The notes under the pieces were generated by a model. That model worked only from the letters and a program-made list of their open reading frames with translations, was not told where the DNA came from and searched no databases. A program made the translations under genes and the position numbers. This document shows, in pieces, positions 4,555 through 62,250 of a DNA stretch of 63,692 bases; the stretch's first letter is position 1; each line of letters opens with the position of its first letter. Where the stretch lies: NCBI GenBank assembly GCA_035559435.1, contig DATMBC010000075.1, positions 1-63,692 on the forward strand, read 5' to 3'. Source of the stretch: a bacterium (GTDB lineage Bacteria > Zixibacteria > MSB-5A5 > WJJR01).

Positions 4555-4574
4555 CCCGGAGACTGTAAGCCGCA

Positions 4575-5811: not shown

Positions 5812-5918
5812 GCGCGGTGCGCAAGAAATCGGCCGAGCTGCCGATAGCCAAATTAAGCAGCGCTGAGATTAGAAGCTCGGGGCAGCCGAGAAGTGACAAC
5901 AGTATGGGGAGGACGCAC

Positions 5919-6350: not shown

Positions 6351-6357
6351 ATCGCCG

Positions 6358-6900: not shown

Positions 6901-6915
6901 GCAGGTCAGCGACGG

Positions 6916-10309: not shown

Positions 10310-10788
10310 GCGCCTCCCGGCGTCGACAGCTTTTGTTCGCGCTCCTGGTAGGGAGCGCCGTCTTCGGTCTGTACATGAAGCCATGGGAGCGGCGGCGTCC
10401 GACGGTCGGCTCCGTTGCGGATGAGTCCGCTCCGATGGCGACGAATGTAGCCACGATGACGCCGTCGACCGTTCCGGTGCTTGTGGCGGATGTGGGCTGG
10501 CCGGCACGCGATCCATTTGCGCAGCCCGGCGAGTTTCCGACGCGGCGCGACGATCGTCCGAAGGTCGCTGATCGGGCGTCCCTGCCGAGGCCGTCGTTGC
10601 GGCTGCAGGGAATCGTCGGTGTTGACGGAACACGATCCTGTGTGATTGGCGGCGAAGTTCACTGCGTCGGAACCACGGTGCAGGGATGGATGATCACGGA
10701 GATCGCCGCGGATGGAATCTGGTTGTCGCGGGCAGGGCAGCGGCTGTTTGTGCCGCTGAAGTCGTTCGAGCCGTCCGGGGGGAAATGA
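10306..10788 (+). CDS. PilP/GspC-like pilotin-type linker protein
   Basis: A 160-aa protein with a basic start (MSASRRRQ), one membrane helix (LLFALLVGSAVFGLYM), a proline-rich linker containing ARDPFAQPGEFPTRR, and a compact C-terminal domain: LRLQGIVGVDGTRSCVIGGE then GWMITEIAADGIWLSRAGQR. The DPF motif and the LQGIV...I.G pattern are typical of PilP/GspC homology regions that bind the secretin N-domains. It overlaps its upstream neighbour by ATGA and overlaps the secretin start, so it is translated with the secretin it would contact. Confidence 0.75.
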   Translation: MSASRRRQLLFALLVGSAVFGLYMKPWERRRPTVGSVADESAPMATNVATMTPSTVPVLVADVGWPARDPFAQPGEFPTRRDDRPKVADRASLPRPSLRLQGIVGVDGTRSCVIGGEVHCVGTTVQGWMITEIAADGIWLSRAGQRLFVPLKSFEPSGGK

Positions 10789-12074
10789 TGCATCGCCGAT
10801 TGCTGATTCTGATGTGGGCCGCCACAGTGGCGGGGAACGCCGCGATTGCCTGGTCGAAACCGGCCGCGCGCGATGTCTCGTTGCGCTTCTCATCAACGCC
10901 GGTCCCGGTGGTCCTGCGCGCGCTGGCCGAACAGGTCGGATTTGATCTGGTGGTCGGCCCGGGGATCGAGGCCGAGATCGATGTCGACCTCAACGGCGTG
11001 CCCTGGGAGACCGCGCTGGATGCGGTGGCCGCAAGCCATGGCCTCTCGTATCAATGGCGCGACGACGTGCTGGTGGTGCTGCCCGGCGGCGAAGGGAATG
11101 GATTCTTGACGCACCAAGTGGTGACGCTGCGCTATGCGAATCCACTGGCGGTCAAGACCGTGCTCGCGTCAGTCCTGCGCGCGCCGGCGAAGGTGGAACT
11201 GCTGCAGGCGGTGACCACCGGCACGACCGCCGCCACCGCCGCGCCTCCGCCCGTGCTGGTCGTCTCGGAATCGCCGCAGGCGATGCCGGCGCTGCTCGCA
11301 TTGATTGATTCGCTGGACGTCGAGCGCCCGCAGTTTGAAATCGAAGTGAAGTTCGTGGAGACGACGCTGGACGACAAGATGGATGTGGGGTTCAATTGGC
11401 CGACCCGTGTGTCGGCCACGCTCTCCAACCGCGACGCGTCGGGCACCGCCAGCGAGACCAACCAACTCCAGCCCGCCGCCGAGTATGACATCCCCGACGG
11501 CAAGATCTGGAAATTCGGCACGCTGAGCATCGATCAACTCACCGGCTTCCTCGACCTGCTCAAGCAGAACGGCAAGTCGAAACTGTTGTCCGACCCGCGC
11601 GTGACGGTGGTCGAGTCGGAGCGCGCGGTGATGCGGGTGGCCACCACCATTCCGGTGCAGACGTTGAACCGCTTCTCCGAGGGCGGCACCATCCAGGATA
11701 TCGTCAGTTTCCAGGATTTGGATGTCGGGATCACGCTGGCGGTAACGCCCCGGCTCAATGAGAACGGTCTGATGACCTTGGATGTCGAGCCGGTGGTCGA
11801 GGAGATCACCGGATTCACCGGGCCGGCGGATAATCAGCGGCCGATCACATCCAAACGGACCGTCCGCACCACCGTGCGGGTGAGAGACAATGAGACGGTG
11901 GTCATTGGCGGTCTGGTCCGTGAGAACGACATTTCCACCAAGAGCAAACTCTTCCTGCTGGGCGACCTGCCGCTCCTTGGCGGCCTGTTCACCCATTACA
12001 AGACACAGAAGCAAAAGACCGATCTGTTGATTTTCATCACGCCGCGTCTGATCACATCGATGGCCGCCAATTAG
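10785..12074 (+). CDS. gspD: Outer-membrane secretin (PilQ/GspD family)
   Basis: A 429-aa secretin forming the outer-membrane gate of the pilus/secretion machine. A signal peptide ([20 protein letters not shown]) is followed by a secretin/TonB short N-terminal domain ([20 protein letters not shown], about residues 32-100), an N1-like domain, and the C-terminal secretin core with [16 protein letters not shown] and the signature [17 protein letters not shown] near residue 370, ending in [13 protein letters not shown]. It is the last gene of the cluster and ends tail-to-tail, overlapping the GNAT gene by 4 nt. It is short for PilQ, having no AMIN domains. Confidence 0.9.
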
Positions 12075-22267: not shown

Positions 22268-24361
22268 TCACTCCAAGCCGTAATCAAGCACATAATCCGG
22301 CGGCTCGCCGCCGGGCCCCTTCAGGTAGTGCTCCAACCACTGAAGCATCCGCAGGTTGTAGTCGCGCTGGGCGGCGGCCTTGCGATTGCCGTGCGCCTCA
22401 TCGGGATACCACACCAGACGGACCGGCGCCTTCCCGCGCATCGTCAGGTGGGTGTAAAGCTCCAGCGATTGGGAGGGATTGACTCGCGTATCCTTCTTGC
22501 CGTGCAGGATCAACGTCGGCGTCTTTGATCGGTCGGCGTAGTAGATCGGGCTGCGTTCCAGCAGGAATTGCCAGTTCTCCCACGGCGTCTTGCGCAGATG
22601 CACTTCGATCAATTCGTTGGGAATGTCAGAAATCGCGAACTTTGAGACCTGATCGGTGACGCCGACCGACATGACCGCCGCGGCGAAGCGATCGGAGTAG
22701 TAGGTCGCGCACCAGGCCGTGGCGTAGCCGCCGTATGATCCCCCCGTCACTCCCACCTTGGCGCTGTCGACCAGTCCGGCGCCGATCAGGTGGTCGACGC
22801 CGTCGATCAGGTCGTCGAATTCCTTCCCGGCCAAATCGCCGTGGTCCATCTTCGAGAATTCCACTCCCCGCCCGGTGCTGGCCCGGTAGTTCGGGTAGAA
22901 GACCGCCATGCCGCGGGCGGCGGCGACCTGCCCGGCGCTGGCGTAATTGGTCAGCCAGCCATTCTGATAATGCGCCTCCGGACCCCCATGCACCTGCAAG
23001 ATGAGGGGGTAGCGGGTGCCGGGTTGTTCGTTGAGGGGACGGATCAGGATGCCTTCGATCTCCAGGCCATCCCGCGCCGTGTAGCGGACCACTTCCTGCG
23101 GCGCCAGGGCGCAATCGGCCAGCCAAAGGTTGTTGTCGGTCAGACGCACCGGCTCGGAACCGGTGCTCCGGCGGTAGTAGACTTCCGTGGGATGCCGCGG
23201 TGAATTCCCGGTCAGCGCCAGCGCGCCGGTCAGGTCCGCATACGAAAACGACGTGAAGATCGCGCCCTCCTCGGGCCGGCCGATGGGTGTCTGCCGGTCG
23301 GACCAGATCGGCGCGGGAGAGGCATACAGGCGCGACTGGCGTTCATCGAGGCCGATCACGTCGAGATGCGACCAAACGCCCTGATTGACGAGGACGACCA
23401 GCGACTGATTGTCGCGCCAGGCAAAATCGGCGATGTCGCCCTGCAGGTCGGGGATGATGTCGATCGGAACGCCGCCGGAAGACGGCGCGATCATCAACCG
23501 TCCCGCGGCGGGATCGTTGGGATCGGCCCCGGCGATCATGGCCAGATGGCGCCCGTCGGGCGACCAGGCCACCTGTCCGATCTTGCCGGGATTGTCGATT
23601 CTGGCGATCAGCGCGCCGTTTGCGGCATCGATGACGTGCACGCGACGGCGCATGTACTCATCGTCGGCCATGGCGGTCGGCGCCAGACAGAGCGCGATTT
23701 TCCCGCCGTCGGGGCTCCAGTGCGCCTCGGAGGCGCTGCCGGTCAGGTCCAGCCGCTTGGCCAGCGAATCGGGGGCGTCCACCGCGCGCACCCAGACCCG
23801 GACCGGTTCTTTGGACTCGGTATAGACTTCCTGCGTGAAGCCCTTCTTGCGGAGTGACTCGATCGCCTTCGGGGTCGGCTCGGTCGCCAGGAAGAACAGG
23901 CGCTGCCCGGAGGGATCCAGTTCATAATTGGCGATGTCGGCGCCATGTTCGGCGATCTTGCGCGATTCGCCGCCGTCAAGGGGGATCTCATAGAGCGCGC
24001 GTTTCTCATCCTCGCCGCGGCGGGCCAGATAGGTGATCGCGCGGCCATCGGGCGTCCAGCGCACCGTGGTCACATTGACCGCGCCGGTGACATACGGCCG
24101 CGAGCGCCCGTCGGCGTCGACCACATGCAGCTCCTCCCACGCCGCGCCATCCTTCTCGGTGCGCAGATCGCGGGGCACGCGCAGCGTGTAGGCGATCCAT
24201 TTCCCATCGGGGGAGATGACGGCGCTGGTGACGCCGCGCAGGCGGGCCACTTGATCGGGTGTCAGGGGATCGCGCGCGGCGGCGTCACGCGGCCAGACGG
24301 CCAACACGACCAAGGCGACCAGCGTGGCGATCGTCACAACCGGCAGTGGACGACACTTCAT
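22268..24361 (-). CDS. Exported S9-family (prolyl oligopeptidase/acylaminoacyl-peptidase-like) serine peptidase
   Basis: A 697-aa exported peptidase. A signal peptide (MKCRPLPVVTIATLVALVVL, cleaved near AAARD) is followed by a WD40/TolB-like seven-bladed propeller containing repeated SPDGKW and WTPDGR motifs. The C-terminal alpha/beta-hydrolase has Ser542 in GGSYGGY, Asp624 in HGKKDTRVNP and His657 in DEAHGNRK, the full S9C triad. It probably trims oligopeptides in the periplasm. The ATG at 24361 is preceded by CCGGAGGCTGCC; the frame reaching further upstream has no such site. It is divergent from the cytochrome locus and 66 nt ahead of the efflux operon. Confidence 0.93.
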   Translation of the reverse strand: MKCRPLPVVTIATLVALVVLAVWPRDAAARDPLTPDQVARLRGVTSAVISPDGKWIAYTLRVPRDLRTEKDGAAWEELHVVDADGRSRPYVTGAVNVTTVRWTPDGRAITYLARRGEDEKRALYEIPLDGGESRKIAEHGADIANYELDPSGQRLFFLATEPTPKAIESLRKKGFTQEVYTESKEPVRVWVRAVDAPDSLAKRLDLTGSASEAHWSPDGGKIALCLAPTAMADDEYMRRRVHVIDAANGALIARIDNPGKIGQVAWSPDGRHLAMIAGADPNDPAAGRLMIAPSSGGVPIDIIPDLQGDIADFAWRDNQSLVVLVNQGVWSHLDVIGLDERQSRLYASPAPIWSDRQTPIGRPEEGAIFTSFSYADLTGALALTGNSPRHPTEVYYRRSTGSEPVRLTDNNLWLADCALAPQEVVRYTARDGLEIEGILIRPLNEQPGTRYPLILQVHGGPEAHYQNGWLTNYASAGQVAAARGMAVFYPNYRASTGRGVEFSKMDHGDLAGKEFDDLIDGVDHLIGAGLVDSAKVGVTGGSYGGYATAWCATYYSDRFAAAVMSVGVTDQVSKFAISDIPNELIEVHLRKTPWENWQFLLERSPIYYADRSKTPTLILHGKKDTRVNPSQSLELYTHLTMRGKAPVRLVWYPDEAHGNRKAAAQRDYNLRMLQWLEHYLKGPGGEPPDYVLDYGLE

Positions 24362-24491
24362 GGCAGCCTCCGGAGATTGCGGCGCGGTGCGCAATGAACC
24401 GGACCCGCATACGGGTATTTCCGCGCCGCCGGGGCCTACGATAGCAACACCGGGCCGCGTTGTCGACGGCGTTGTCAGAAATCTGGCAAAA

Positions 24492-24516
24492 CTGTCAAAA
24501 GTCGCGGCGAATTCGG
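24492..24516 (+). promoter_or_regulatory. CTGTCAAAA-type motif, copy 1, upstream of the 42-haem cytochrome
   Basis: CTGTCAAAA (24492-24500) is followed by TCGCG, then GAAT, then CGG. The same order occurs upstream of ccmF at 35739. It is 108 nt before the cytochrome start and lies in the region divergent from the S9 peptidase. This could be a regulator site for the electron-transfer locus. Confidence 0.35.
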
Positions 24517-24608
24517 ACAAGAACCTGTCACTATGTGCCGTCGCTCCCTTGCGTTTATCCCCTATCCCATATCTTGTTTGCGTCACCGGAGCGTACTCCG
24601 GTCGGAGG

Positions 24609-27600
24609 ATGAGAACCCCTATGCCCCATCGGCGTGGCGTGACAATGGTGTGGTTGCTGCTTTGGGCGGCGGCCCTGATGCTGACCGTGGCTTCGCGCGC
24701 GGCCCTCGGCGCGGAGAAGACTTGCTACGACTGCCACGAGGAGGCAAAGACCCGCTTCAAGAAGAAAGTTCAGCACGAACCGGTCGCCAAAGGCGATTGC
24801 GAAGATTGCCATCTGCGCCACGGGTTCTCGAATATGCTGATCCTCAAAAAGGACGGCAAAGAACTCTGCTTGGAATGCCACACCGATTTCGACACCACCG
24901 TGGCATCCGGCGCGCATGCGCACCCGGCGTTCGCGCAGGGAATGTGCAACACCTGCCATGAGCCGCACGCCTCCGATCAAAAGGGACTGATCCGCCACCT
25001 CGACGGCGATGTAGTCTGCCTCGCCTGCCATAAGCAATTGGCGGACACGTCATCGGCCTCGCGGCAGCATCCGCCGTTTGCCGAACGCGCCTGCGGGCAG
25101 TGCCACGTGCCCCACACCGGTCCGTTGGACAAGCTCCTCAACGCCGATCAGCGCTCGCAGTGCGGGGTCTGCCACGACAATGGGGGCGTTCAGCGCGCGC
25201 ATGACGCCAAGGGGATCAACCCGGCGGGGCTGGAATGCTCGGGCTGCCACGATCCGCATCGCTCGTCCAAGCCCGCGCTGATCGGCGAGCATGTGCATCC
25301 GCCAGTGGCCGACGGCATGTGCGACGCCTGCCACACCGGGGAACCTGTGCCGCCGCAGTCCATCGGCGCGGCCGATTCCACCTGGAACGGGTGCTCCGCC
25401 TGCCATGAGAACATCGGCGCCAAACTGGAACTGGCCACGCCGCATGCGCCGGCCGCCATGGGCGAATGCTACCAATGTCACTCGGCGCATCAATCCAGTC
25501 GCCCGGGGCTTTTGAAGGATGGCGTGGCGCTGCTGTGCCAGACCTGCCATGAGGACATGTCGGCGCCGGTGCTGGAAAAGACGGTCAGCATTCACCAGCC
25601 GGTGCTGGCGGGAAACTGCAACGTCTGCCACGACGCGCACGGCTCCGCGGAAAAATCGCTGTTGATCAAACCCGGCGAGGCGCTCTGCCGCGATTGCCAC
25701 ACGGACGCGAAATTCACCGCGTCGCATCATCTGCAGGCCGCCGACCTCGGCTGCCTGGACTGCCATTCGCCGCATGCGAGCATGCAGCCGGCGCTGTTGC
25801 GCGAAACGCCGCAAGCCACCTGCGTCAAATGCCATGATCCGCGCCTGTCGCCGACGATGGTGGCGCACGAGCCGGTCAAGCAGGGCGATTGCGCCATCTG
25901 TCACGACCCGCACGCCGGCGTCGGCGCCAAGTCATTGCAGCAGGAGCCGCCGATGCTCTGCTTCAATTGCCATCAGAACATCGCGCGTTTTGTCACCGCC
26001 GAACACAAGCATTCGGTGGTGGAGGACTGCGGCACCTGTCACGGCGCGCACGAAGCGCCGCACAAGGGACTACTGTTGAAGCCCGGGTCCGGGGTCTGCG
26101 CCGATTGCCATGATGTCGCACGCGACCCGGCGGCCAAGTCGGTGCACAAACCCTTCGATCAGGGGGATTGCGGCGGTTGCCACAATCCGCACGGCAGCCA
26201 GTTTGCCAACCTCCTGGGCCCGCGCCGGCAGATGCTGAGCACGCCGGTCGGACAGATATTCAACTACCCCAAACTGGACAGCACGTCCGTCTCTCTCTGC
26301 CGGACCTGTCACGCCGACGAAATCGATCTGTGGCAGACCAAGACCGTGCAGCACCTGCCGGCGCGCAACGGCGAGTGCTCCGCCTGCCACTCGGCCCATC
26401 AGTCGCCCAATGGCAATCTGCTGACGAAGCCGACCTACGAGCTCTGTCAGGGGTGCCACGATCCCGCCGCCATTCCGGCCGAGCCGCATCGGGGGATCAA
26501 TCTGGCCAGCGCCGATTGCGCCCAATGCCATGACCCGCACGCTTCAGAGCGCAAGGGGCTGATCAAGTCGAACACGCACGTGCCGTTCGGCGATGGCTCC
26601 TGCGATGCCTGCCACACCGGCCCGGGGAGCGTCACGCTCACGGCCGCGCAGCCCGATCTCTGCCTGACCTGTCATGAGGACCTGCAGACGCAACTGGACA
26701 TGACCGTCGCGCATGCGCTGGCGGCAGGCGGCGAGTGCACGGCCTGCCACAGCGCACACTCGTCGAACGAGCCGCATCTGTTGACGGGCAAACTGTCGTC
26801 GGTCTGCGGATCATGCCATGATGCCACCCCCGGCAAGATCCGCCACCGTCCCTATGCGGAAGGCGACTGCCGGCGCTGCCATGAGCCGCATGGTTCCGCG
26901 CAGCCCGGCCTGCTGGTGAAAAACGCGAACGGTCTCTGCCTGGATTGTCACACCACATTGGCGGAACGTATGCAGAACGAGACACGTCACGGCGCCATTG
27001 CCGAAGGGTGCCTGGCCTGCCATGCCGGCCATGCGTCGGACAACGCCTCGCTCCTGCAGTTGCCGCCGTCGGAGCTCTGCGGCAAGTGCCATGACACCAA
27101 GACCGCCGCCTGGCGCGCGGTGCATGTGGTGCCGGGCGTGGCGGCCACCGGCGGCGACTGCATGTCCTGCCACGATCCGCACACCACGGCCGCCCGAGGC
27201 ATGGCGATGCTCAAGCGCTCGCAGCATCCCCCCTTTGAAGCGCGCGAGTGCGGCGCCTGCCACGAAGCCGGCGCGACCGAAGTCCGTGGCGACCGTCAGC
27301 TGTGCGGGCAATGCCACGACGAGACGATCGCGGCCATCGACGGCATGCCGGTGGTGCACGCGGCCATGGCCGACAGCGCCGCCTGTATGACCTGCCACTC
27401 GCCGCACGTGGGCGACACCCCCGCGCTGCTGCGCAAGACCGGGTTCTCCGTCTGCACCAACTGCCACGAAACGATCAACCTCGCCGATTCGGTGGTGCAC
27501 AACCCGGCGCGCGAGGACTGCGCGATATGCCACACCCCGCATGGCGGCAGCGACGCGCGGCTGTTGTCCGAGACGGACATCATGGCGTTGTGCATGCGCT

Positions 27601-27797
27601 GCCACGAAGACGCGCCCAAGACGCACTTCCATGCGATGGGCGAACAGACCAAGAATCCCGACAACCGCGGCAAGATTGTCTGCACCAGCTGCCACTCACC
27701 CCACAATTCCGCGCAAAAAGCGTTGCTTCTCGGCGACGCGATGCGTGGTTTGTGCGTGCGCTGCCATGATCCGTCGGCATCGCACAGTGGAGGATGA
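24609..27797 (+). CDS. Giant multihaem c-type cytochrome with 42 CxxCH motifs
   Basis: A 1062-aa exported cytochrome. After a signal peptide (helix MVWLLLWAAALMLTVASRAA) I count 42 CxxCH haem-binding motifs from CYDCH to CVRCH, about one per 25 residues. Many are in the paired-CxxCH arrangement with following HxPH or HAS/HGS segments (for example CNTCHEPHAS and CSACHSAHQS). No membrane anchor or other domain is visible. Repeats of about 45-50 residues suggest growth by duplication of a two-haem unit. It would be a periplasmic or surface electron conduit. GGAGG at 24604-24608 abuts the ATG at 24609; the in-frame ATG at 24621 has a more usual spacing and may be the true start. It overlaps the next gene's region by a few nucleotides. 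Confidence 0.93.
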   Translation: MRTPMPHRRGVTMVWLLLWAAALMLTVASRAALGAEKTCYDCHEEAKTRFKKKVQHEPVAKGDCEDCHLRHGFSNMLILKKDGKELCLECHTDFDTTVASGAHAHPAFAQGMCNTCHEPHASDQKGLIRHLDGDVVCLACHKQLADTSSASRQHPPFAERACGQCHVPHTGPLDKLLNADQRSQCGVCHDNGGVQRAHDAKGINPAGLECSGCHDPHRSSKPALIGEHVHPPVADGMCDACHTGEPVPPQSIGAADSTWNGCSACHENIGAKLELATPHAPAAMGECYQCHSAHQSSRPGLLKDGVALLCQTCHEDMSAPVLEKTVSIHQPVLAGNCNVCHDAHGSAEKSLLIKPGEALCRDCHTDAKFTASHHLQAADLGCLDCHSPHASMQPALLRETPQATCVKCHDPRLSPTMVAHEPVKQGDCAICHDPHAGVGAKSLQQEPPMLCFNCHQNIARFVTAEHKHSVVEDCGTCHGAHEAPHKGLLLKPGSGVCADCHDVARDPAAKSVHKPFDQGDCGGCHNPHGSQFANLLGPRRQMLSTPVGQIFNYPKLDSTSVSLCRTCHADEIDLWQTKTVQHLPARNGECSACHSAHQSPNGNLLTKPTYELCQGCHDPAAIPAEPHRGINLASADCAQCHDPHASERKGLIKSNTHVPFGDGSCDACHTGPGSVTLTAAQPDLCLTCHEDLQTQLDMTVAHALAAGGECTACHSAHSSNEPHLLTGKLSSVCGSCHDATPGKIRHRPYAEGDCRRCHEPHGSAQPGLLVKNANGLCLDCHTTLAERMQNETRHGAIAEGCLACHAGHASDNASLLQLPPSELCGKCHDTKTAAWRAVHVVPGVAATGGDCMSCHDPHTTAARGMAMLKRSQHPPFEARECGACHEAGATEVRGDRQLCGQCHDETIAAIDGMPVVHAAMADSAACMTCHSPHVGDTPALLRKTGFSVCTNCHETINLADSVVHNPAREDCAICHTPHGGSDARLLSETDIMALCMRCHEDAPKTHFHAMGEQTKNPDNRGKIVCTSCHSPHNSAQKALLLGDAMRGLCVRCHDPSASHSGG

Positions 27798-27799
27798 CA

Positions 27800-28942
27800 A
27801 TGAGACGAGGTTGGGGACGAGAACTGTCGTGTGCGCTGGCGGTGGGGACCGCGGCGCTGGCGTTGACGTTCTCGCATGAGGCCCGCTCGCAGGCGCCGCT
27901 TGATCCGCCGGGGAATCTGCCTTACGACGGGGCGCATCTGTCGCCGAGCGACGGAGTGCTGCGCGATCCGGCGCTGCCGCGCGGCGACTGCGGCCAATGC
28001 CACATCACGCACGCGGAGACGCAGCCGCAGGCGCAGAACCTGTTTGCGCCGAACAACAACATGCTTTGCTACTCGACCAGCGGCATCGGCGGCTGTCATA
28101 TCAACCGCCCCGACGGCGGCGCCGCCGGCTACCCGGCGCAGGAGCAGGACCGGTTCCCCGACCAGCATCCCTACCACGGCTACTTTGAGGCCGGCGCGGG
28201 AGGCGTGCGCGTGCCGGGGGTCAACAACCGCACCCGATGGCCGGGCAAACTGATCTGGGAGAACACCGCCTACTCGGCGCATTACGCGAGCCCGTCTATG
28301 CCGCGTCTGGACAACACCGGCCGGGGCTCATGCCTCAATTGCCACGATCCCCACAACGGCGCGACGCCGTATGATCAACTCAAGCGCCGTTACGGTCCAA
28401 TCGCCGGTTCGGGCACCAACGCCGCCCCGGCCGAATATGCCCTGTGCCTGGACTGTCACGGTCCCAGCGGACCCTCCGGGCTTACGCCCGAATCGCGCCG
28501 GATCGCCGACTTCTACAGCCGTGTCAGTTCCGGTTCCTCACGCGCCGGCCATGCGATTTCCTACACCCGCGGCGCGGTCAAGCGGGGCGATCGGCTGCCC
28601 TGCTACGATTGCCACAACCCGCATGGCTCAGCCGGCAGCGACGGGCAGCATCCCAACGGTTATCTCATCTCCGATCAACGACCCGGTTGGTATGGCCTGA
28701 CCGACATCAGGAACGACGCGGCGCAGGTGCGGCGTTTCTGCACCGGCTGCCATGCCTATCCGGATCAACCGGGCAGCGGGGGAACGGTCGAAGGCATCCG
28801 GCCGAAGGCGCTGCCGAATGAATACCCGCATCGCTCGTACGAGACCAAGCATTGCTACGACTGTCACGGGCGCGACTACTCCAGCCCCGGCGGATTCAAC
28901 GTGCACAATCCCTCCTCGGGAGAACACGGCGGAGGCGATTGA
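27800..28942 (+). CDS. Six-haem (possibly seven) exported c-type cytochrome
   Basis: A 380-aa protein with signal peptide (ELSCALAVGTAALALTFSHE) and six canonical CxxCH motifs: CGQCH, CLNCH, CLDCH, CYDCH, CTGCH and CYDCH. In addition, CYSTSGIGGCH is a C-X8-C-H arrangement in the place where a haem might be expected. It has the paired-CxxCH style HDPHNG and HNPHGS. GGAGG (27789-27793) lies six nucleotides before the ATG at 27800, which is chosen over the ATG at 27794 that overlaps the previous stop. Its place between the giant cytochrome and a beta-barrel gene suits the periplasmic partner of a porin-cytochrome conduit. Confidence 0.9.
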   Translation: MRRGWGRELSCALAVGTAALALTFSHEARSQAPLDPPGNLPYDGAHLSPSDGVLRDPALPRGDCGQCHITHAETQPQAQNLFAPNNNMLCYSTSGIGGCHINRPDGGAAGYPAQEQDRFPDQHPYHGYFEAGAGGVRVPGVNNRTRWPGKLIWENTAYSAHYASPSMPRLDNTGRGSCLNCHDPHNGATPYDQLKRRYGPIAGSGTNAAPAEYALCLDCHGPSGPSGLTPESRRIADFYSRVSSGSSRAGHAISYTRGAVKRGDRLPCYDCHNPHGSAGSDGQHPNGYLISDQRPGWYGLTDIRNDAAQVRRFCTGCHAYPDQPGSGGTVEGIRPKALPNEYPHRSYETKHCYDCHGRDYSSPGGFNVHNPSSGEHGGGD

Positions 28943-28967
28943 TACGCGGTCCCGGTGTCACCGATGG

Positions 28968-30581
28968 TTGGCGGGTGTGCCGGGGCGTGCCCTGGGAACG
29001 ATCGCTCTGGTGTGGGCGGCCGCATGCCCCGCGGCGGCGCAGGAAATCGGCGGATCGATGAAACTCGACTACCAGAGCACATCCGCCGGCGCGGAGGCGG
29101 ATGCCAATGAATCGGTCGCGCAGCAATACTATCTGCGGCTGACCGACCGTCTCTTTGTCAAGAACCTGTTGGTGTTCACCGGCAACTTCTACTACCGCAC
29201 CGGCAACGCGGTTCAGCCGGTGGATTTTCGCCCGCGCTATGACCTGCAGCTCTCCAGCGCCGGCTATGGCGCGCGGGTCGGGTATGAGCCGTACACACTG
29301 CGTCGGGGCGGCGCGGCGCCCGATGAACAAAGCCGCCGCTGGCGCGCCAACGTGCAGCTGTCTCCGGCGAAGTGGCCGCGCCTGGCCTACGACATGTCGC
29401 GCTTCCGGACGGAAACGGCCGATCGGCCCGGCGGACGCGACAACTGGGATTCGTACATGATGAACTGGCAGGGAGGATCGCGAGTGCTGGCTACCACTTA
29501 CTCCCGCCAGCGCCGGCACGCGCGCGACACGCTTTCGGAAACGGTCGAATCCTACCGCGCGATCGCCTCGATCGATCTGCCGCTGCCCGGCCAGGGGCGG
29601 CTCGGGCTCGGGTACAACTTCGACCGCACCTGGAATCGCCGCGTCGGCCAGGTCACGACCGCGGTCAATCAGCATGTGCCGACCGCCAATCTGTCCAGCC
29701 AGCCCGCCCGTTGGGTCTCGCTGACCGGTCAATACAGCGGCCGCTACATCCGCCGCGACGCGGGCGGCAACCCCACAGACAACACCGACGATCAACTCGC
29801 GACCGGTGTGCTCACTCTGATGCCCACCGCGCGCTGGTCGATTGGCGTGCTCCGCTACTTCGAACGGACCGAAGAACGGCAGGGCACCGAGTCCCGCAAC
29901 ACCGACTACTGGCAAGTGCGCGCCAACACCGACCGGATCTTCTTCCGCCGGATCAACAGCCAGTTCACCGTCTATCGCATCGCCTACCAGGGGGCGGGCA
30001 AGGGTGTTCGCTTTTCGGACGCCTACTTCGCGGCGCTGCGCGGCCGTCCGCATCGGCACGCCGAGCTGTCCACCGAGGTCAGTTTGGCCGACCGGCACGG
30101 ACTGCAGGCGGTGCGCTACGCGGTCAGCGGCACCTCCTATTTGCGTCTGTATCCGACACACGGCTCGCAGGCGCAGGTGTCCTACAATGCCATCGCCGAG
30201 GGCAAGCGGCTCTCGGAGTTTGACATCAGCGAGGAGAGCGTCTCCGGCTCAATGCAGTACTCGCCGGATGCCAGACTGAGCTTCACCGGAACCAGCACTC
30301 TGCGCCGCAACCGGCTCCTGGAGTCGTCGTGGACGATGATCTGGAGTGTGGCGACGACCTATCGCCTGGCATCGGTGGCCAACGCCAGCGCGTACTACGC
30401 CAGCCGCGAGACCGCCCGGACCGCCGGGGCCACCGCCCCCGCGGAGGCGGCCTCTTCCTGGATCCTGACGTTCGATTACTGGCTGAGCCCATCAACGACC
30501 ATCTCAGTGAACTACACATGGCGCGGCAGCGGCCGTGACACACATGACATCTGGGGCGCGGGATTCTCGGCCCAATTCTGA
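28968..30581 (+). CDS. Outer-membrane beta-barrel, putative porin of a porin-cytochrome conduit
   Basis: About 537 aa. A hydrophobic signal (ALGTIALVWAAACPAAAQ^E) is followed by regular amphipathic beta strands through the whole length, such as YYLRLTDRLFVKNLLVFTGN and WVSLTGQYSGRYIRRDAG, ending in aromatic-rich WGAGFSAQF with a terminal Phe as a BAM signal. The size fits a 20-plus-strand MtrB/PcoB-like barrel, though sequence similarity to MtrB is not evident and there is no CxxC near the N-terminus. The start is uncertain: no ATG precedes the signal, and TTG at 28968 or GTG at 28977 are the candidates. It follows the six-haem cytochrome by 25 nt. Confidence 0.78.
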   Translation: MAGVPGRALGTIALVWAAACPAAAQEIGGSMKLDYQSTSAGAEADANESVAQQYYLRLTDRLFVKNLLVFTGNFYYRTGNAVQPVDFRPRYDLQLSSAGYGARVGYEPYTLRRGGAAPDEQSRRWRANVQLSPAKWPRLAYDMSRFRTETADRPGGRDNWDSYMMNWQGGSRVLATTYSRQRRHARDTLSETVESYRAIASIDLPLPGQGRLGLGYNFDRTWNRRVGQVTTAVNQHVPTANLSSQPARWVSLTGQYSGRYIRRDAGGNPTDNTDDQLATGVLTLMPTARWSIGVLRYFERTEERQGTESRNTDYWQVRANTDRIFFRRINSQFTVYRIAYQGAGKGVRFSDAYFAALRGRPHRHAELSTEVSLADRHGLQAVRYAVSGTSYLRLYPTHGSQAQVSYNAIAEGKRLSEFDISEESVSGSMQYSPDARLSFTGTSTLRRNRLLESSWTMIWSVATTYRLASVANASAYYASRETARTAGATAPAEAASSWILTFDYWLSPSTTISVNYTWRGSGRDTHDIWGAGFSAQF

Positions 30582-30600
30582 CCATGCGCGAGGTGAACTC

Positions 30601-31173
30601 ATGAGATTTGCCAATGTCCTTGTCATCGCATCCCTGACGGCGCTGCTGGTGTCGTGTTCCGGCACGCGCTCCTATGTCAATCCCGACGCCGATATGGCGT
30701 ACTACCGCCGTGTCGGCGTGGCCGCCTTCGAATCTCTGGCCGAAGATTCGCGGGCCGGGCAGAAGTTGCAGCGCATCTTTCTGACCGAATTGTTGAAGAA
30801 GGGCAAATTCGACCTGGTGCCGCAGGGTCAGTTCGACAAGGTGGAACTGGAAGTGCGCAACAAGCAGGGGCTGGCTTTTCCGGCGGCGTTGGATTCGGCG
30901 GCGCTGGCTGCCATCGCGCAGCAAACCGGCGCGCAGGGGATCATCATCGGCACCGTGCGCGACTACCGGATGGAACGGGTCGGGCAGGAGGAATTCCCGA
31001 TGGTGGCGTTCTCGCTGAAGTTAATCGATGCCCCCACCGGGCGGGTGGTCTGGGATGTGTCGGTCGGCGAACGCGGCGGGCCGAAACTGCCGGTGATTTC
31101 GCTGGGCGAGACGCACACGTTGAGCGAACTGGCCACCAAACTCTGCCGCCGGGCGCTGGGGACGTTGCCATGA
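30601..31173 (+). CDS. Lipoprotein, CsgG/GNA1162-like outer-membrane assembly family
   Basis: A 190-aa lipoprotein: MRFANVLVIASLTALLVSC^S is a clear signal peptidase II site. The mature part reads VGVAAFESLAEDSRAGQKLQ, then GAQGIIIGTVRDYRMERVGQ and MVAFSLKLIDAPTGRVVWDV, the alternating pattern of the CsgG/DUF799-like ABD fold. CsgG itself secretes curli; relatives are periplasmic-facing lipoproteins of unknown role. GAGGTGAACTC precedes the ATG. It lies just after the beta-barrel gene and overlaps the next gene by ATGA, so a role in assembling or exporting surface cytochromes is plausible but inferred. Confidence 0.8.
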   Translation: MRFANVLVIASLTALLVSCSGTRSYVNPDADMAYYRRVGVAAFESLAEDSRAGQKLQRIFLTELLKKGKFDLVPQGQFDKVELEVRNKQGLAFPAALDSAALAAIAQQTGAQGIIIGTVRDYRMERVGQEEFPMVAFSLKLIDAPTGRVVWDVSVGERGGPKLPVISLGETHTLSELATKLCRRALGTLP

Positions 31174-31961
31174 CACGGTGTGCACTGGCCGCGCTGGCGC
31201 TTGTTGTCGCGCTGTATGGCGCCCTCCGGGCCGAGCCGCTGACGGTGACTTGTCCGGATGGCCGGGAAGTGCTCTGCCGGCTCCTGGATGACCTCGACGC
31301 TTGCGGGCGTCCGCAGGTCGCCGGCGGATGCGGGGGCGTGTCGCTCCTGTACCGGGACTCGGTGCTGGCGGTCGATTCGCTGGTGATTCGCATCTGGTCG
31401 GTGGCGGACACCTGCGGGGAGGCGCAGGTCTGCTTCCAGCCGCTGACACTTCTGCCCGGACGACCCCGACTCGCCGTCTTGCCGCTTGAAAACCTCTCGA
31501 CGGCCGAGGAAGGGGCGCGGGTATTGCAGCGGCTTCTGGAGGAGGCGCTGGCTGGTCTCGAGCCGGCCGAGCTCATCGCGCCGGCGAAGGTCGACGATGC
31601 GGTGATGCGCGGACGAGTGCGGCAGCCGGTGTTGATGGATGATGAACAGCGGGCGCGGCTAAGCAGGGCGCTGGACGCGCAATATCTGGTGGTCGGCTCG
31701 CTGCTTAACTACGAAATCTACCAGGACCAGTACTCCGGGCCGATCCCGATGATCAGCTGTGTGTTGCAGCTTCAGCGGGCCTCCGACGGCCGCACCTTGT
31801 GGTCCGAGTCGCTGCATGCGGTCGGCAACGATGGGGAATGGCTGTTTGCGCTGGGGGTGGAGCATGACATCACCCGTCTGGGCCGCAATCTGGCGCGCAA
31901 AGCGGCCCGCGCGCTGGCAAAGCACATCGCCGATGCCCCCTGCGCGCCGCGCGCCGATTAG
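31170..31961 (+). CDS. Exported CsgG-like/FlgT-like protein of unknown function
   Basis: A 263-aa exported protein with signal peptide (MTRCALAALALVVALYGALR) and a short cysteine-containing N-terminal part (CPDGREVLC, CGRPQVAGGCGG, DTCGEAQVC). A CsgG-like domain follows: RLAVLPLENLSTAEEGARVL, LDAQYLVVGSLLNYEIYQD and CVLQLQRASDGRTLWSESLH. This fold is shared with the preceding lipoprotein, so the two may act as a pair at the outer membrane. Six N-terminal cysteines could form disulphides. The ATG overlaps the preceding TGA. Confidence 0.72.
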   Translation: MTRCALAALALVVALYGALRAEPLTVTCPDGREVLCRLLDDLDACGRPQVAGGCGGVSLLYRDSVLAVDSLVIRIWSVADTCGEAQVCFQPLTLLPGRPRLAVLPLENLSTAEEGARVLQRLLEEALAGLEPAELIAPAKVDDAVMRGRVRQPVLMDDEQRARLSRALDAQYLVVGSLLNYEIYQDQYSGPIPMISCVLQLQRASDGRTLWSESLHAVGNDGEWLFALGVEHDITRLGRNLARKAARALAKHIADAPCAPRAD

Positions 31962-32295: not shown

Positions 32296-33381
32296 ATGTG
32301 CCACATACGAACCAGCGCTGTATCCCCAAGAGATTGTGAAAATAATCGCAAAGTAAATATATATGTGACGCTTTTTGTCCTGATCGTCGCGGCCGTGATT
32401 CCCGGCGCATCCGTGCGTGCGCAAGTCTCGCCGTGGGAGGTCACGGCCATTCTCACCGAGTCTGCCAGCGGGAAACCGTATCGCGCCATCGTCGGACTCT
32501 TCGCCGATCCGGTGACGGGCGAGTTGTACGTCCTCGATGGCGGGCGCAGAATGATCGACGTGCTCGATTCGACCGGTCTGCCGCGCTACTCGTTTGTCCA
32601 CTGGATCACCGACCCGCAGACGGGGCGTCGCGTGCCGGGTGAACCGCACGCGTTGGTGGTTTCGGCCGAAGGCGAGATTTTCATTACCGACTACTATTCC
32701 CGAATGATCGATGTGCTCAACATCCGCGGCGAGCGGATCGACCAGATCGATGTGCTTGAGGCCATCGGCTGGCATGATCCCTCGCTCCGTCCCGAGAAGA
32801 TCGCGCTGGACGGAGAGGGGCGCCTCTACGTGAGCATCGCCGGCTCACGCACCGGGGTGGCGCGTTGCCTGACGGATGGGTCATCGTGCGAACTTTTGGT
32901 CAACACCACAGCGGAAGGAGTGCAGGCGATAACGGCGATGAGTGTTGCTCCGGATGGTCGATTCGCGGTCTTGGACTACCGCGGCGAACCGGCGGTGCGC
33001 GTCTACGATCCCAGCGGCCGGCTGATTGTGGCCTTTGCCGGGCACGATGTCGCGGAGGGGGATTTGTCCTATCCCGCGTCGTTCCTGTTTGCCGCTGACG
33101 GGTCGTATTGGATCGCGGACGCGCTTCGTCACGCGGTCAAGCACTATTCGGACAAGGGTGAATTCATCGAATACGTCGGGGGATACGGCGCCGGACCTGG
33201 CAGCGTCCGTTATCCCTCCGGAGTCACCGGGGATGGCGTCGGACGGCTGGTCGTGGCCGAGCGGGTCGGTGCTCGGATTCAGGAGTATGTCCTTCCCGGC
33301 GCGGTCTATGCCGCCCCCGCTCAACCCACACCCGCGTCCGGCCCAGGAACCGTCGTGGTGGACCCGGAAAGCGTTGAATGA
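32296..33381 (+). CDS. Exported NHL-repeat (six-bladed beta-propeller) protein
   Basis: A 361-aa protein with an N-terminal hydrophobic segment (VTLFVLIVAAVIPGASVRA^Q) and NHL-type repeats: GLFADPVTGELYVLDGGRRM, ALVVSAEGEIFITDYYSRMI, IALDGEGRLYVSIAGS, SVAPDGRFAVLDYRGEP, FLFAADGSYWIADALRHAVK and GDGVGRLVVAERVGARIQEY. It ends in a Pro-rich tail. The N-terminus before the hydrophobic stretch is odd for a signal peptide, so the ATG at 32296 may be wrong and a GTG just before the hydrophobic part is possible. NHL propellers near multihaem cytochrome genes probably serve as extracellular or periplasmic interaction scaffolds. The stop is followed within 60 nt by an OmcS-like cytochrome. Confidence 0.82.
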   Translation: MCHIRTSAVSPRDCENNRKVNIYVTLFVLIVAAVIPGASVRAQVSPWEVTAILTESASGKPYRAIVGLFADPVTGELYVLDGGRRMIDVLDSTGLPRYSFVHWITDPQTGRRVPGEPHALVVSAEGEIFITDYYSRMIDVLNIRGERIDQIDVLEAIGWHDPSLRPEKIALDGEGRLYVSIAGSRTGVARCLTDGSSCELLVNTTAEGVQAITAMSVAPDGRFAVLDYRGEPAVRVYDPSGRLIVAFAGHDVAEGDLSYPASFLFAADGSYWIADALRHAVKHYSDKGEFIEYVGGYGAGPGSVRYPSGVTGDGVGRLVVAERVGARIQEYVLPGAVYAAPAQPTPASGPGTVVVDPESVE

Positions 33382-33437: not shown

Positions 33438-34454
33438 ATGAAGCGTACCTTCGTGCTGATGGTCGCGCTCGTTCTCATCGTGCCTGTCGCAGTCATGGCC
33501 GGTGATTATCACAAGGGCGTGACCCTCAACTGTTCCGAGTGCCATGTAATGCATGGCTCTCAGCAGCACGGCTACAACGCCGACGGCAGCGGGGTGTTCA
33601 CCCCGATCGGCGGCGCCCCGCCGTACCAGTACCTGCTCCGCAATGAGATCAACGCGCTCTGCCTGACCTGCCATAACAATCAGACCTTCGCGCCTGATGT
33701 CCTGGAGGCCAACGGCGGAACGGCCCCGACCACCGGTCGCCAAGGCGGCGCATTGAACATGAACAACACGGCGCCGTATTTCGCGTCCACCGGCCACACC
33801 TTGGGATCGCATGACGTGGCCCCGGGCGGCACGTTCAGCAACCCCCATGGACTCGAGTGCGTGGACTGCCACCAGCCGCACGGCCGGAGCAGCGGCACCA
33901 ACACCAACCCCTATCGCAATCTGGGCAACTACGACGCCACCCACACGGTGTACACGGCGTACATGACCTATGCGATTGGGACCAACGATCTGACCAAGGA
34001 CGTCTTCGAGCGCACCGCCAGTGGTTCGGATCACTATGACATCGGCAATGTCGACTTCAACGAACCGAACGTCACCGGCTCACGCTATGGCGACTTCTGC
34101 AAGAGCTGTCACACGAACTTCCATGGCAACTCGACCGACGCCCACATGGCCAACGCCGACGGCTGGCTGCGTCACCCGGCGGCCGAAGCGAATATCAGCA
34201 TCTCGACGTTCGGCGCCCGTCTCTATCGTCCGAAGGTTATGAGCGCGACCGGCGATTGGGGCACGCAGGGCACGGCCTTCACCACCGGCCCGACCGACCT
34301 GACCCCGTCCTGCTTCTCGTGCCACCGGGCGCATGGCAACACCAACAGCTTTGGCATAATCCTTCAGGATGGTCTGTCGACCATCGGTGAAGACGGCACC
34401 GCGGGCGCGACGATGCGCACCACCTGCCGCACCTGCCATCGCCAGGGCTCGTAA
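33438..34454 (+). CDS. Hexahaem c-type cytochrome, OmcS-like (candidate nanowire subunit)
   Basis: A 338-aa exported cytochrome: signal peptide MKRTFVLMVALVLIVPVAVM (cleaved near VMAG^D), preceded by GGGAGG. The six haem motifs are CSECHVMHG, CLTCHNN, CVDCHQPHGR, FCKSCHTNFHG with LRHPAA downstream, CFSCHRAHGN and CRTCH. This order matches what I recall of Geobacter OmcS: CxxCHTMH, CLNCH, CSSCHDPHGK, WCANCHTDIH...LRHPAG, CLSCHRAHAS, CNKCH. OmcS polymerises into extracellular filaments. The resemblance is in motif order and flanking residues; filament formation is inferred. Length is about 90 residues shorter than OmcS. Confidence 0.88.
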   Translation: MKRTFVLMVALVLIVPVAVMAGDYHKGVTLNCSECHVMHGSQQHGYNADGSGVFTPIGGAPPYQYLLRNEINALCLTCHNNQTFAPDVLEANGGTAPTTGRQGGALNMNNTAPYFASTGHTLGSHDVAPGGTFSNPHGLECVDCHQPHGRSSGTNTNPYRNLGNYDATHTVYTAYMTYAIGTNDLTKDVFERTASGSDHYDIGNVDFNEPNVTGSRYGDFCKSCHTNFHGNSTDAHMANADGWLRHPAAEANISISTFGARLYRPKVMSATGDWGTQGTAFTTGPTDLTPSCFSCHRAHGNTNSFGIILQDGLSTIGEDGTAGATMRTTCRTCHRQGS

Positions 34455-34582: not shown

Positions 34583-35677
34583 GTGAGACCCATACTGTCA
34601 ATCGTACCGATCCTGATGAGCATCGCGTCCGTGGCGATTGCGGCGAGCGGTCCTTCGCCTCTGCGTCCGATCCATTTGCGCACGGCCCCGCGGTCCCCGA
34701 TGGCGGCCGGCGCCCAGGCTCTGGACACTTATCACAACGGCGTCACGTTGCGTTGCGCTGATTGCCATGTCATGCATCAGTCGAAACAACATCGACTCAA
34801 CGATGACCCAGTCAATGATCCGTTTGGGGGATATCCCCAGAATTTTGCCGGGGGAGCGCATTTGCTGAAGACGGCGGATCCGATCGACCTGTGCCTGACA
34901 TGCCACGACAACCAGCCCGGGATCCCCGATGTCGTCGGCACGGACATCAATGGCCTGGCGGCCCGTTCGGCGGGCTACTTCGCTGACATCGGAGAACGCA
35001 ATCCCCGCGGGCATTCGTTGGAGCGCGGTCTGAAGACGGAAGATTACGAACTTTGCCTCCGTTGCCATTTCGGCGGGGAACTGGCCACCGCCTCGGTCAC
35101 CTGCATCGACTGCCACAATCCGCACGGCAACGGCCGCCCGCGCAATCTGCAGTGGGCGTCCTACCCGGGCGGCGAGCCGCAGTTCGGGCTTCTGCAATCG
35201 GGGCCGGCCGCGGGTCTGGCGCGTTACGAGGAGGCGAATGTCGCCTACGGGACCGCCAATTCCGACCTGTTGCGCGAAGTCTCCAACATGTGCCTGGATT
35301 GCCACCATGTCTACAGCGGCGAGTCCTACATCGATCCCGACGGCGACGGATGGCACAATCGCCATCCTTCCTACGACAGCGAGCGCGGGTCGACCAACTC
35401 CATCGCTCAGGGCGCGGCGCGGGGCACTACCGACCCGTCGCACTGGGAAGCGGGGTCAGGCGCCGGATTCAACGGCACGTCGCGGCTGAAGTGGGTTGGC
35501 ATCAACGCCACCGACTTTGTCACGGCCACGCAGGTCCAGGCGACGACCAACGGCGTGTTCTGCCTGAGCTGCCACCAGGCCCACGGGAATGGCCACGCGT
35601 TTGCCCTCCGTTGGGATCCGACGACCACTCCGGATGGCCTCGGTTGCGAGCAGTGTCATAATCGGACCGAATTGTAG
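34583..35677 (+). CDS. Heptahaem c-type cytochrome, paralogue of the OmcS-like protein
   Basis: A 364-aa exported cytochrome with seven motifs: CADCHVMHQ, CLTCHDN, CLRCH, CIDCHNPHGN, CLDCHHVYSG with NRHPSY downstream, CLSCHQAHGN and CEQCH. The opening YHNGVTLRCADCHVMH mirrors YHKGVTLNCSECHVMH of the gene before it, so they are paralogues; here an additional haem sits before the PHG motif. The start is GTG (34583) six nucleotides after CGAGGA. A signal helix (ILSIVPILMSIASVAIA) is present. It may be a second filament type or a connector to the outer-membrane conduit. Confidence 0.87.
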   Translation: MRPILSIVPILMSIASVAIAASGPSPLRPIHLRTAPRSPMAAGAQALDTYHNGVTLRCADCHVMHQSKQHRLNDDPVNDPFGGYPQNFAGGAHLLKTADPIDLCLTCHDNQPGIPDVVGTDINGLAARSAGYFADIGERNPRGHSLERGLKTEDYELCLRCHFGGELATASVTCIDCHNPHGNGRPRNLQWASYPGGEPQFGLLQSGPAAGLARYEEANVAYGTANSDLLREVSNMCLDCHHVYSGESYIDPDGDGWHNRHPSYDSERGSTNSIAQGAARGTTDPSHWEAGSGAGFNGTSRLKWVGINATDFVTATQVQATTNGVFCLSCHQAHGNGHAFALRWDPTTTPDGLGCEQCHNRTEL

Positions 35678-35827: not shown

Positions 35828-38086
35828 ATGATGAATGTTCAAAACATGACGCTGTGGCTGGCCGGACTGACGATGTTGGCGGCCATCGTGCTGTACGCGC
35901 GCGCACGCGATGCGCGCATGCTGCGCCTGGCCGACCGGATGGTCTACGCGCATCTGGGTCTGTTGTCGGCGGCGCTGGTCCTGCTCCTGGTCGCCTTTCT
36001 GGCGGACCAGTTCCAGTTCGCCTACGTCGCGCACAATTCCTCGCTGGCCCAGGAGCTCTTCTATAAGATCTCCGCGGTCTGGGCGGGGCAGGAGGGGACA
36101 TTCCTGCTCTGGGCCTGGATGGTCGCCGTCATGGCCGTCTTCGTCATCCGCCGCGGCGGCGAATATCATCGCTGGGCGATGGTCTATGTGCTCGCGACCC
36201 AGGCGTTCCTCATGCTCCTCCTGTTTGTCCGCTCGCCGTTCGCGCCGGTGGAGGGCGGCGTTCCGGCCGACGGCAGCGGGATGAACCCGCTTCTGAAGGA
36301 TCCGTGGATGGTGATCCATCCGCCGATCGTCTTCATCGGGTATGCCGCGTTCACCATTCCCTTTGCCTACGTCATCGCCGCGCTAACGATGCGGTCGTTC
36401 AGGTCGCTGGCGACCACAATTTTCCCGTGGGTGGCCTTTGCGACCGTGACGTTGGGCGCCGGCATCTTCATTGGCGGTTTCTGGGCTTACAAGGTGCTGG
36501 GGTGGGGAGGGTACTGGGGCTGGGATCCGGTGGAGAACGCTTCGCTGGTGCCGTGGCTGACCGGCATGGCGCTTCTGCACGCCCTCATTCTCTATCGCAC
36601 CAAGGGGCAGCTCCCCAAGACCACAATGTGGCTGGCCTGTGTGTCGTACATCCTGGTGGTGTATGGCACCTTCCTGACGCGGTCCGGCGTGCTGTCCGAT
36701 TTTTCGGTGCACTCGTTCGCCGATGCCGGTATCAACTCGTACCTGTCGGCCTTTCTGTTCATCGTCGCGCACATCTCCTTCATCATGCTGCTGATGCGCG
36801 GCCGCAAGGTGACCGGCCCGCCCATTCCCAAAGCGATCAGTTCGCGGGAGTTCGGGCTGGTGACCGGCGTGCTGCTTTTCTGCCTGGCCGCGGCGTTTGT
36901 GATCCTCGGGACGTCGTCACCGATTCTCACTGGCCTGGTCGGGAATCCCTCGAATGTGGCGATGAGTTACTACAACCAGGTCTCGTTGCCGATCGGCATC
37001 CTCATCGCGCTGGTGCTGGGATTTTCGCCCTTCCTGCTGGTCGAACGCACCCAGTGGGGCGAACTCTTCCGGACGGTCATCTGGTCGATCATCGCTGCCA
37101 CGGTGGTGACCGTTGGGGCGATTTTATTGACGACACTGGCGCCGTTGCACGCGGTTTTGATTTTCGTCTCGGTGGCGGCGCTGGCGTCCAACGGCCTGGC
37201 GATCTGGCGGTTTTCGCACGGGCATCCATTGCGGATGGCCGGGCACCTGACCCATCTCGGATTCGCGGTCATGCTGCTTGGGATCATCGCGTCGGCCGCG
37301 TATTCGGGCGAGGAGACGCTGACTTTGCGCTCGGGCGAAACGGGTGAATCCTACGGCACGCAGATTCAATTTCTCCGCGCGGTCAAAGGCGAGACCACCG
37401 AAGACGGTTATCTCGATCTTCGCCTCGTGCGCGGAAACGACACGACCGTGGCGCATCCGAAGCTCTACATCTCCGAGTATTCACAGCAAGTGATGCGCAC
37501 CCCGCACATCGAGAAGGGGTTCCTTTCCGATCTCTACATCGCGCCGCTGGACCATCAGGCCTCAGCCCACGCCGGCCACGGTCTGACGCTGACCAAGGGT
37601 CAGACCTCCTCCTATGGCGGCTGGAATCTGAGCTTTGTCCGCTATGACATGTCGCAGCATGGCGAGGGCGGCGCCATGAAGGTTGGCGCGGTCATCAACG
37701 CCGAACAGAATGGCACATCCTACGAGATCATCCCGTCGATGGAGTCCACGGTGTCGGGCAAGCACTCCCCGATCGTCCGGATCCCCGGCACGGAGATGGG
37801 GCTCTCGCTGGTCGGGATGTCGGTGGAGCAGCGATCGGTCACGCTGGAGATCGATGACCCCACGACGGGGCAGATGGCCGGCGGCGAGTCGCTGGTTCTG
37901 TCGGTGTCGCGCAAACCGTTGACCAGTTTGGTCTGGGCCGGCTGCATCCTGATCACCCTCGGTACCGGCTTTTCCTACTGGCGCCGTCGGGTCGAGGAGA
38001 AACTCGTGATCGCGCACGATCATCCCGCTTCCGCGTTCCCCGGCCTCCCCAAAGGGGGCCGTCTGAAGACCACGCTGCCGCATTAG
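35828..38086 (+). CDS. ccmF: Cytochrome c haem lyase subunit CcmF
   Basis: A 752-aa polytopic protein with the CcmF/CcsA tryptophan-rich haem-handling motif WGGYWGWDPVENAS starting at Trp226, preceded by HPPIVFIGYAAFTIPFAYVI and followed by about a dozen further membrane helices and a C-terminal periplasmic domain (about 500-690) with a closing helix. CcmF ligates haem to CxxCH apoproteins in System I maturation. GGGAGGAG lies before the ATG. No ccmA-E, ccmG or ccmH gene is in the window, so this copy may be dedicated to the adjacent cytochromes, or the rest may be elsewhere. Confidence 0.94.
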   Translation: MMNVQNMTLWLAGLTMLAAIVLYARARDARMLRLADRMVYAHLGLLSAALVLLLVAFLADQFQFAYVAHNSSLAQELFYKISAVWAGQEGTFLLWAWMVAVMAVFVIRRGGEYHRWAMVYVLATQAFLMLLLFVRSPFAPVEGGVPADGSGMNPLLKDPWMVIHPPIVFIGYAAFTIPFAYVIAALTMRSFRSLATTIFPWVAFATVTLGAGIFIGGFWAYKVLGWGGYWGWDPVENASLVPWLTGMALLHALILYRTKGQLPKTTMWLACVSYILVVYGTFLTRSGVLSDFSVHSFADAGINSYLSAFLFIVAHISFIMLLMRGRKVTGPPIPKAISSREFGLVTGVLLFCLAAAFVILGTSSPILTGLVGNPSNVAMSYYNQVSLPIGILIALVLGFSPFLLVERTQWGELFRTVIWSIIAATVVTVGAILLTTLAPLHAVLIFVSVAALASNGLAIWRFSHGHPLRMAGHLTHLGFAVMLLGIIASAAYSGEETLTLRSGETGESYGTQIQFLRAVKGETTEDGYLDLRLVRGNDTTVAHPKLYISEYSQQVMRTPHIEKGFLSDLYIAPLDHQASAHAGHGLTLTKGQTSSYGGWNLSFVRYDMSQHGEGGAMKVGAVINAEQNGTSYEIIPSMESTVSGKHSPIVRIPGTEMGLSLVGMSVEQRSVTLEIDDPTTGQMAGGESLVLSVSRKPLTSLVWAGCILITLGTGFSYWRRRVEEKLVIAHDHPASAFPGLPKGGRLKTTLPH

Positions 38087-58585: not shown

Positions 58586-58637
58586 ATATGCTTGTTCGAC
58601 AACCGGGCGGCGAGTTGCCCGGACCTGAGCGCCGATA

Positions 58638-58665
58638 CCCACCCTCGACAGAGGGATGGGGTTTT
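58638..58665 (+). terminator. Terminator-like hairpin with TTTT just before mfd
   Basis: CCCA-CCCTC, loop GACA, GAGGG-A-TGGG, then GTTTTC: nine paired positions with one bulge. It lies in the frame that would extend Mfd upstream to 58588, so it also argues that the real mfd start is at 58687. Confidence 0.6.
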
Positions 58666-58686
58666 CGTGTATGCGCCGAGCCGACC

Positions 58687-62205: not shown

Positions 62206-62250
62206 ATTGAGTGGCTTGTGCGTGGCAACGCCCGGCATTGAGGAGAACTC

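Follow-up and report, generated by a model that had tools for sequence, protein, structure and literature searches.

A compact OmcS-fold hexahaem cytochrome, a probable filament subunit, encoded with a conserved companion gene cluster in Zixibacteria

The DNA analysed here (the window) is a stretch of 63,692 nucleotides of contig DATMBC010000075.1, from a Zixibacteria genome assembly of 3.0 Mb in 106 contigs (GCA_035559435.1). Across the whole window, 65 CXXCH-coding sites were counted, compared with 3.9 expected from shuffled sequences. The hexahaem cytochrome gene under study (gene A), its seven-haem paralogue (gene B), and the genes around them are listed in Table 1. Gene A is a complete open reading frame (ORF) of 338 codons with exactly six CXXCH motifs. 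Its start was placed at 33438 rather than at the ATG of a longer ORF (33378) because a Shine-Dalgarno sequence (GGGAGG) lies only a few bases 5' of the former. The product begins with a signal peptide, as read from the sequence (MKRTFVLMVALVLIVPVAVMA), followed by a mature chain of ~317 residues that starts with GDYH (GDYHKGVTLNCSECHVMH...). The reading frame is conserved in relatives from the same class (44 to 67% identity), and the product is a predicted secreted hexahaem c-type cytochrome.

Table 1. Annotated genes of the gene A locus, with the basis or remarks for each assignment
Feature	Position	Strand	Basis or remarks
42-haem cytochrome, fused equivalent of 26-haem and 16-haem pair	24324..27797	+	probable signal peptide from ~24645
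6-haem cytochrome adjoining barrel, not OmcS-like	27794..28942	+	only 20.7 bits with OmcS-like profile
Probable outer-membrane beta-barrel	28752..30581	+	OMP-like sequence with C-terminal F; family F14; true start probably 3' of 28942
LpoB/CsgG-like lipoprotein, lipobox LVSC	30535..31173	+	Pfam LpoB 1.2e-7, CsgG below cut-off; probable start ~30601
Second LpoB/CsgG-like envelope protein	31170..31961	+	ATG overlaps stop of preceding gene
NHL beta-propeller protein directly 5' of gene A	32296..33381	+	Pfam NHL; probable start nearer 32353
Gene A: OmcS-type hexahaem c-type cytochrome, probable filament subunit, with signal peptide	33438..34454	+	sequence, profiles, predicted fold
Gene B: 7-haem paralogue of gene A	34583..35677	+	same twelve histidines plus one extra CXXCH
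CcmF/NrfE-type haem lyase with ResB-like tail	35828..38086	+	Pfam Cytochrom_C_asm 3.1e-31, CcmF_C 6.1e-25

Pfam searches returned no match for the barrel candidate or, taken alone, for the second LpoB/CsgG-like protein, which corresponds in family and place to the second gene of the Geobacteraceae LpoB/CsgG-like pair. The first LpoB/CsgG-like gene is conserved in 35 loci. A 435-amino-acid ORF at 30654-31961 was rejected as a single gene, its first part overlapping this conserved gene in another frame, and several neighbourhood families (such as F1, F3, F4, F5, F10, F11, F13, F15, and F38) were discarded as shadow frames of the cytochrome or neighbouring genes. Farther upstream (2746-12074) lie type II secretion or type IV pilus-like genes, encoding a GspE-type ATPase, GspF, an N-methylated pilin-like protein, and a secretin. 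At the other end of the window (58588-63690), mfd is followed by a gene for a SurA-like PpiC isomerase, a housekeeping pair by position.

The original prediction was that the six haem motifs of gene A follow the order of those in OmcS of Geobacter sulfurreducens, including an RHPA after the fourth haem. The motifs read, in order, CSECHVMH, CLTCHNN, CVDCHQPHGRS, CKSCHTNFHGN (followed by WLRHPAA), CFSCHRAHGN, and CRTCHRQGS, and the predicted order was borne out by the one-to-one alignment of twelve conserved histidines with OmcS. The six CXXCH histidines are in register, and six others pair as OmcS His 2/16/110/147/257/335 with gene A His 25/39/120/148/246/299. Six extra histidines for six haems fit what bis-histidine ligation needs, and the conservation of these residues in the alignment suggests that they are the axial ligands. 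One further histidine is common to both proteins (OmcS His247, gene A 229), and this position is not conserved in Geobacteraceae.

A search of the PDB with gene A as a single sequence gave no significant match, a result in favour of a generic likeness among multihaem cytochromes rather than a particular tie to OmcS. Profiles were more discriminating. OmcS was the sole significant PDB match of a profile of 14 gene A relatives (E = 1.7e-9), and a profile of 56 relatives searched against the whole PDB retrieved OmcS (6ef8/6nef) at E = 8.8e-19, with the next chain at 5e-4. Matches to MtrC/MtrF, DmsE, and similar proteins were rejected as general CXXCH matches near or below the cut-off. In the reciprocal direction, a profile built only from nine Geobacteraceae OmcS-family proteins scored 39.7 bits with B and 22.6 bits with gene A and did not match the 42-haem gene or the other 6-haem gene of the window. 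The best of 500 shuffles of gene A in which the CXXCH residues were held fixed reached 15.4 bits with this profile. The OmcS sequence used had been verified along its full length against 6ef8.

The fold of gene A was predicted with AlphaFold2 from the 56-sequence alignment, from which OmcS was absent, and the resulting model had a pLDDT of 83.9 and a pTM of 0.80. In a Foldseek search of 350,542 PDB chains, OmcS was again the sole significant match (E = 3.3e-7, probability 1.00). VIA-align superposed the model on OmcS with a Z score of 13.6 (3.8 Å over 260 residues; residues 20-337 of gene A on 1-407 of OmcS), and the next-best chains were an undecahaem cytochrome (Z 3.6) and OmcE (Z 3.3). The AlphaFold version used was trained on structures released before that of OmcS, so the match is unlikely to have been remembered. 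OmcS is singled out by the profiles in both directions (the reciprocal one with CXXCH-preserving decoys), by the fold, and by the gene cluster (below), and these results already contradict a general multihaem resemblance, which can hardly be maintained. Gene A almost certainly belongs to the OmcS superfamily and shares its fold.

Membership in the superfamily does not make gene A an OmcS orthologue. A rapid maximum-likelihood tree built from 128 OmcS-type proteins (SH-aLRT support only, no bootstrap, midpoint root, long branches) grouped gene A with Zixibacteria (SH-aLRT 95-98), then with Eisenbacteria, Latescibacteria, and Planctomycetota. The OmcS, OmcT, and paralogous proteins of Geobacteraceae formed another group, which also took in two proteins from the class to which the window belongs. 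The likeness to OmcS that had been predicted thus holds at the level of the superfamily, as judged from the profiles and fold, and fails for OmcS itself, since gene A falls in a separate clade, one spread over Zixibacteria, Eisenbacteria, Planctomycetota, and others. Gene A shares with OmcS the haem order, the histidines, the predicted fold, and the adjoining NHL gene. It differs in its low identity (~25%), in several missing loops, and in a mature chain shorter by ~90 residues (407 in OmcS), so that "shorter type" was an apt description. OmcS is a structure-proven filament (6EF8, 6NEF), whereas gene A is known here from genes and a predicted fold. OmcE (7TFS) and the archaeal tetrahaem nanowires are stacked-haem filaments with inter-subunit ligation, the arrangement proposed below for gene A; they carry four haems instead of six, and OmcE is only weakly similar to the gene A model in structure.

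The neighbourhoods of gene A-type genes were compared in 73 loci from a single scan of GTDB genomes seeded with gene A. Most of these genes sit just 3' of an NHL propeller gene of the family that also flanks omcS in Geobacteraceae. Among the longer loci from Zixibacteria and Eisenbacteria, most also contain a barrel, two LpoB/CsgG-like genes, and a giant cytochrome, and a CcmF-type gene occurs near gene A in several loci besides that of the window. Some gene A-type copies stand alone, several of them from Planctomycetota. In five Planctomycetota loci (L085, L088-L091), the usual companions were absent within 10 kb, and some of these genomes hold a clustered copy as well.

Three Geobacteraceae loci, whose OmcS proteins are ~57-72% identical to that of G. 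sulfurreducens, served for comparison. Their gene order is NHL, OmcS (with or without OmcT), YNCE-like propeller, barrel, two LpoB/CsgG-like genes, PpiC isomerase, 26-haem, 16-haem, and NHL; in one of the three, 15 haems were counted in the 16-haem gene. By this order, the locus is the osc operon, and Osc letters were assigned by gene order from published accounts (PMC12977616, PMC13194489). The osc block comprises eight genes downstream of OmcS genes and has been linked to maturation and secretion (PMC12977616), with proposed roles in folding for OscH, secretion for OscE/F/G, and morphology for OscD (PMC13194489). Related cassettes have been described as the electron conduit OetABI in partners of methane-oxidizing archaea (PMC10553843), and a related set comprises 26-haem and 16-haem cytochromes, a propeller, and an isomerase (PMC5539420). 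Because these accounts differ, both secretion of OmcS and a conduit role are allowed for the barrel and lipoproteins.

Judged from gene families and order, the gene A cluster matches most of this omcS-companion/oet locus. Common to both are OmcS-type cytochromes with an adjoining NHL propeller, two LpoB/CsgG-like genes in tandem (OscF and OscG by order), and giant cytochromes. A barrel-like gene precedes this tandem pair, in the position of the Geobacteraceae outer-membrane barrel (OetI; OscE by order), and may be its counterpart; its F14 profile matches one Geobacteraceae barrel weakly (4e-7). Unlike the osc/oet locus, the window has the 6-haem gene, the seven-haem OmcS paralogue, and CcmF, and one 42-haem gene takes the place of the 26-haem and 16-haem genes. 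Neither an OscH-type PpiC prolyl isomerase nor a YNCE-like second propeller (OscD by order) was found in the gene A locus. The best genome match to the isomerase was the SurA-like gene at 62251, 24 kb away, which was rejected as OscH because the match is weak and mfd is its usual neighbour.

The giant cytochrome of the window has 42 CXXCH motifs, a number found in twelve other complete homologues (41 in one more) on contigs of Zixibacteria-like organisms, Eisenbacteria, Latescibacteria, and Anaeromyxobacter, among others. In ANME-partner sulfate reducers and Geobacteraceae, a 26-haem and a 16-haem protein together reach the same total, and placed end to end they align with residues 125-764 and 780-1149, respectively, of the 42-haem chain. 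The kept haem total and the end-to-end alignment imply either a gene fusion in one group of lineages or a gene split in the other group. The split form occurs in Planctomycetota, Nitrospinota, Geobacteraceae, and others, and it is the form accompanied by the isomerase and YNCE-like propeller, with the exception of one Anaeromyxobacter locus that combines the 42-haem gene with the isomerase. The two arrangements (26 + 16 with isomerase; 42 mostly without) can help to separate assembly factors from electron carriers. In our literature search, which was not exhaustive, we found no description of the 42-haem form.

We take the inter-subunit ligand of OmcS to be His16. The OmcS subunit has twelve histidine ligands, eleven supplied within the subunit and one by the neighbouring subunit at haem 505 (Filman et al., PMC6584659). 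All 56 gene A-type sequences retain a histidine at the His16 site, as does B, whereas three Geobacteraceae paralogues have lost it and show CHGRQ, CHGSL, and CHGSR there. The latter are hexahaem paralogues encoded after the 16-haem and NHL genes (L125:14217-15524, L127:17708-18994, and L129:16224-17444), and the absence of the equivalent histidine may prevent them from ligating an adjacent subunit. Kept and lost sites thus provide a natural contrast ready for testing polymerisation.

We infer that gene A likely forms an OmcS-type filament in vivo, an interpretation strengthened by the presence of the companion cluster. Its product, a compact OmcS-fold cytochrome, would be exported to the periplasm and loaded with six bis-histidine c-haems, with help from CcmF. 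Once through the outer membrane, the subunits would stack head to tail in a continuous chain of haems, in which each His39 (OmcS His16) would complete the ligation of a haem in the next subunit. The barrel and the two LpoB/CsgG-like proteins would serve as the site of export or as a conduit, assembly would be aided by the NHL propeller, and the 42-haem protein and adjacent 6-haem protein would conduct electrons through the periplasm to the base of the filament. B may be a second OmcS-type subunit (a cap, a base, or the subunit of a second filament), and the cell probably exchanges electrons with external solids or partners.

The missing OscH isomerase and second propeller of the Geobacter locus speak against a filament and in favour of gene A being a monomer or short oligomer, that is, the terminal surface cytochrome of a porin-cytochrome conduit made up of the 42-haem protein, the 6-haem protein, and the barrel. 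The adjoining genes for these three resemble a conduit, and OmcS paralogues that have no known function and are not known to polymerise are common (PMC12977616). However, the remaining companion families are kept, and it is hard to see what a monomer would do with the invariant His16 equivalent if that histidine is an inter-subunit ligand. We consider such a surface cytochrome unlikely.

The roles of A and B could also be reversed, with B as the filament subunit and gene A as its companion, as OscC is to OmcS. B outscores gene A on the Geobacteraceae-only profile and keeps all twelve histidines, and OmcS was the best PDB match of a profile of B (E = 1.2e-8). The extra CXXCH of B (35054-35068, between haems 2 and 3), however, adds a seventh haem absent from OmcS. 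In the scan seeded with gene A, B-type genes were present in a minority of loci and gene A in nearly all, usually beside the NHL gene. The gene A model matches OmcS, whereas the AlphaFold model of B (pLDDT 44, pTM 0.45) was too poor for use. This exchange of roles is therefore very improbable. B can be compared with OmcT, OmcJ, and OscC (GSU2501), OmcS-type paralogues of Geobacter of which OmcT and OscC adjoin omcS as B adjoins gene A; it differs from them in its seven haems and its clade.

With gene A as the probable filament subunit, cytochrome nanowires are probably also made by microbes that are not closely related to Geobacter, because an OmcS relative adjoins most of the genes proposed to build and feed such filaments. 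A broader proposal, which we regard as possible but somewhat doubtful, is that OmcS-fold nanowires of a second, compact class are made by Zixibacteria and other uncultured phyla, perhaps from two subunits (the 6-haem A and the 7-haem B with a side-branch haem), with a single 42-haem periplasmic wire charging them and with assembly independent of the OscH isomerase of Geobacter. The structure of a single OmcS-type filament is known. A family of many uncultured phyla that is a quarter shorter and keeps the fold and ligands offers a natural experiment for identifying the parts of OmcS that a wire requires.

The gene A cluster also leads to the prediction that named uncultured lineages carry out extracellular electron transfer. 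Geobacter-like porin-cytochrome operons were predicted in Zixibacteria with FeGenie (PMC7005843), and Zixibacteria were described as iron-cycling generalists in a deep mine community in which OmcS genes were detected (PMC8478452). OmcS homologues have been reported from Geobacter, Geoalkalibacter, and Anaeromyxobacter (PMC10954620). Our search, again not exhaustive, found no account of an OmcS-fold protein with a companion cluster in Zixibacteria. Even in Geobacter, it is disputed whether OmcS filaments are physiologically needed (PMC11077965), and the dispute extends to a Zixibacteria filament. Two genomes of the window's class (loci L027 and L029) encode proteins nearer to Geobacter OmcS (36% identity) than gene A is, and transfer between phyla is possible for these OmcS-type proteins.
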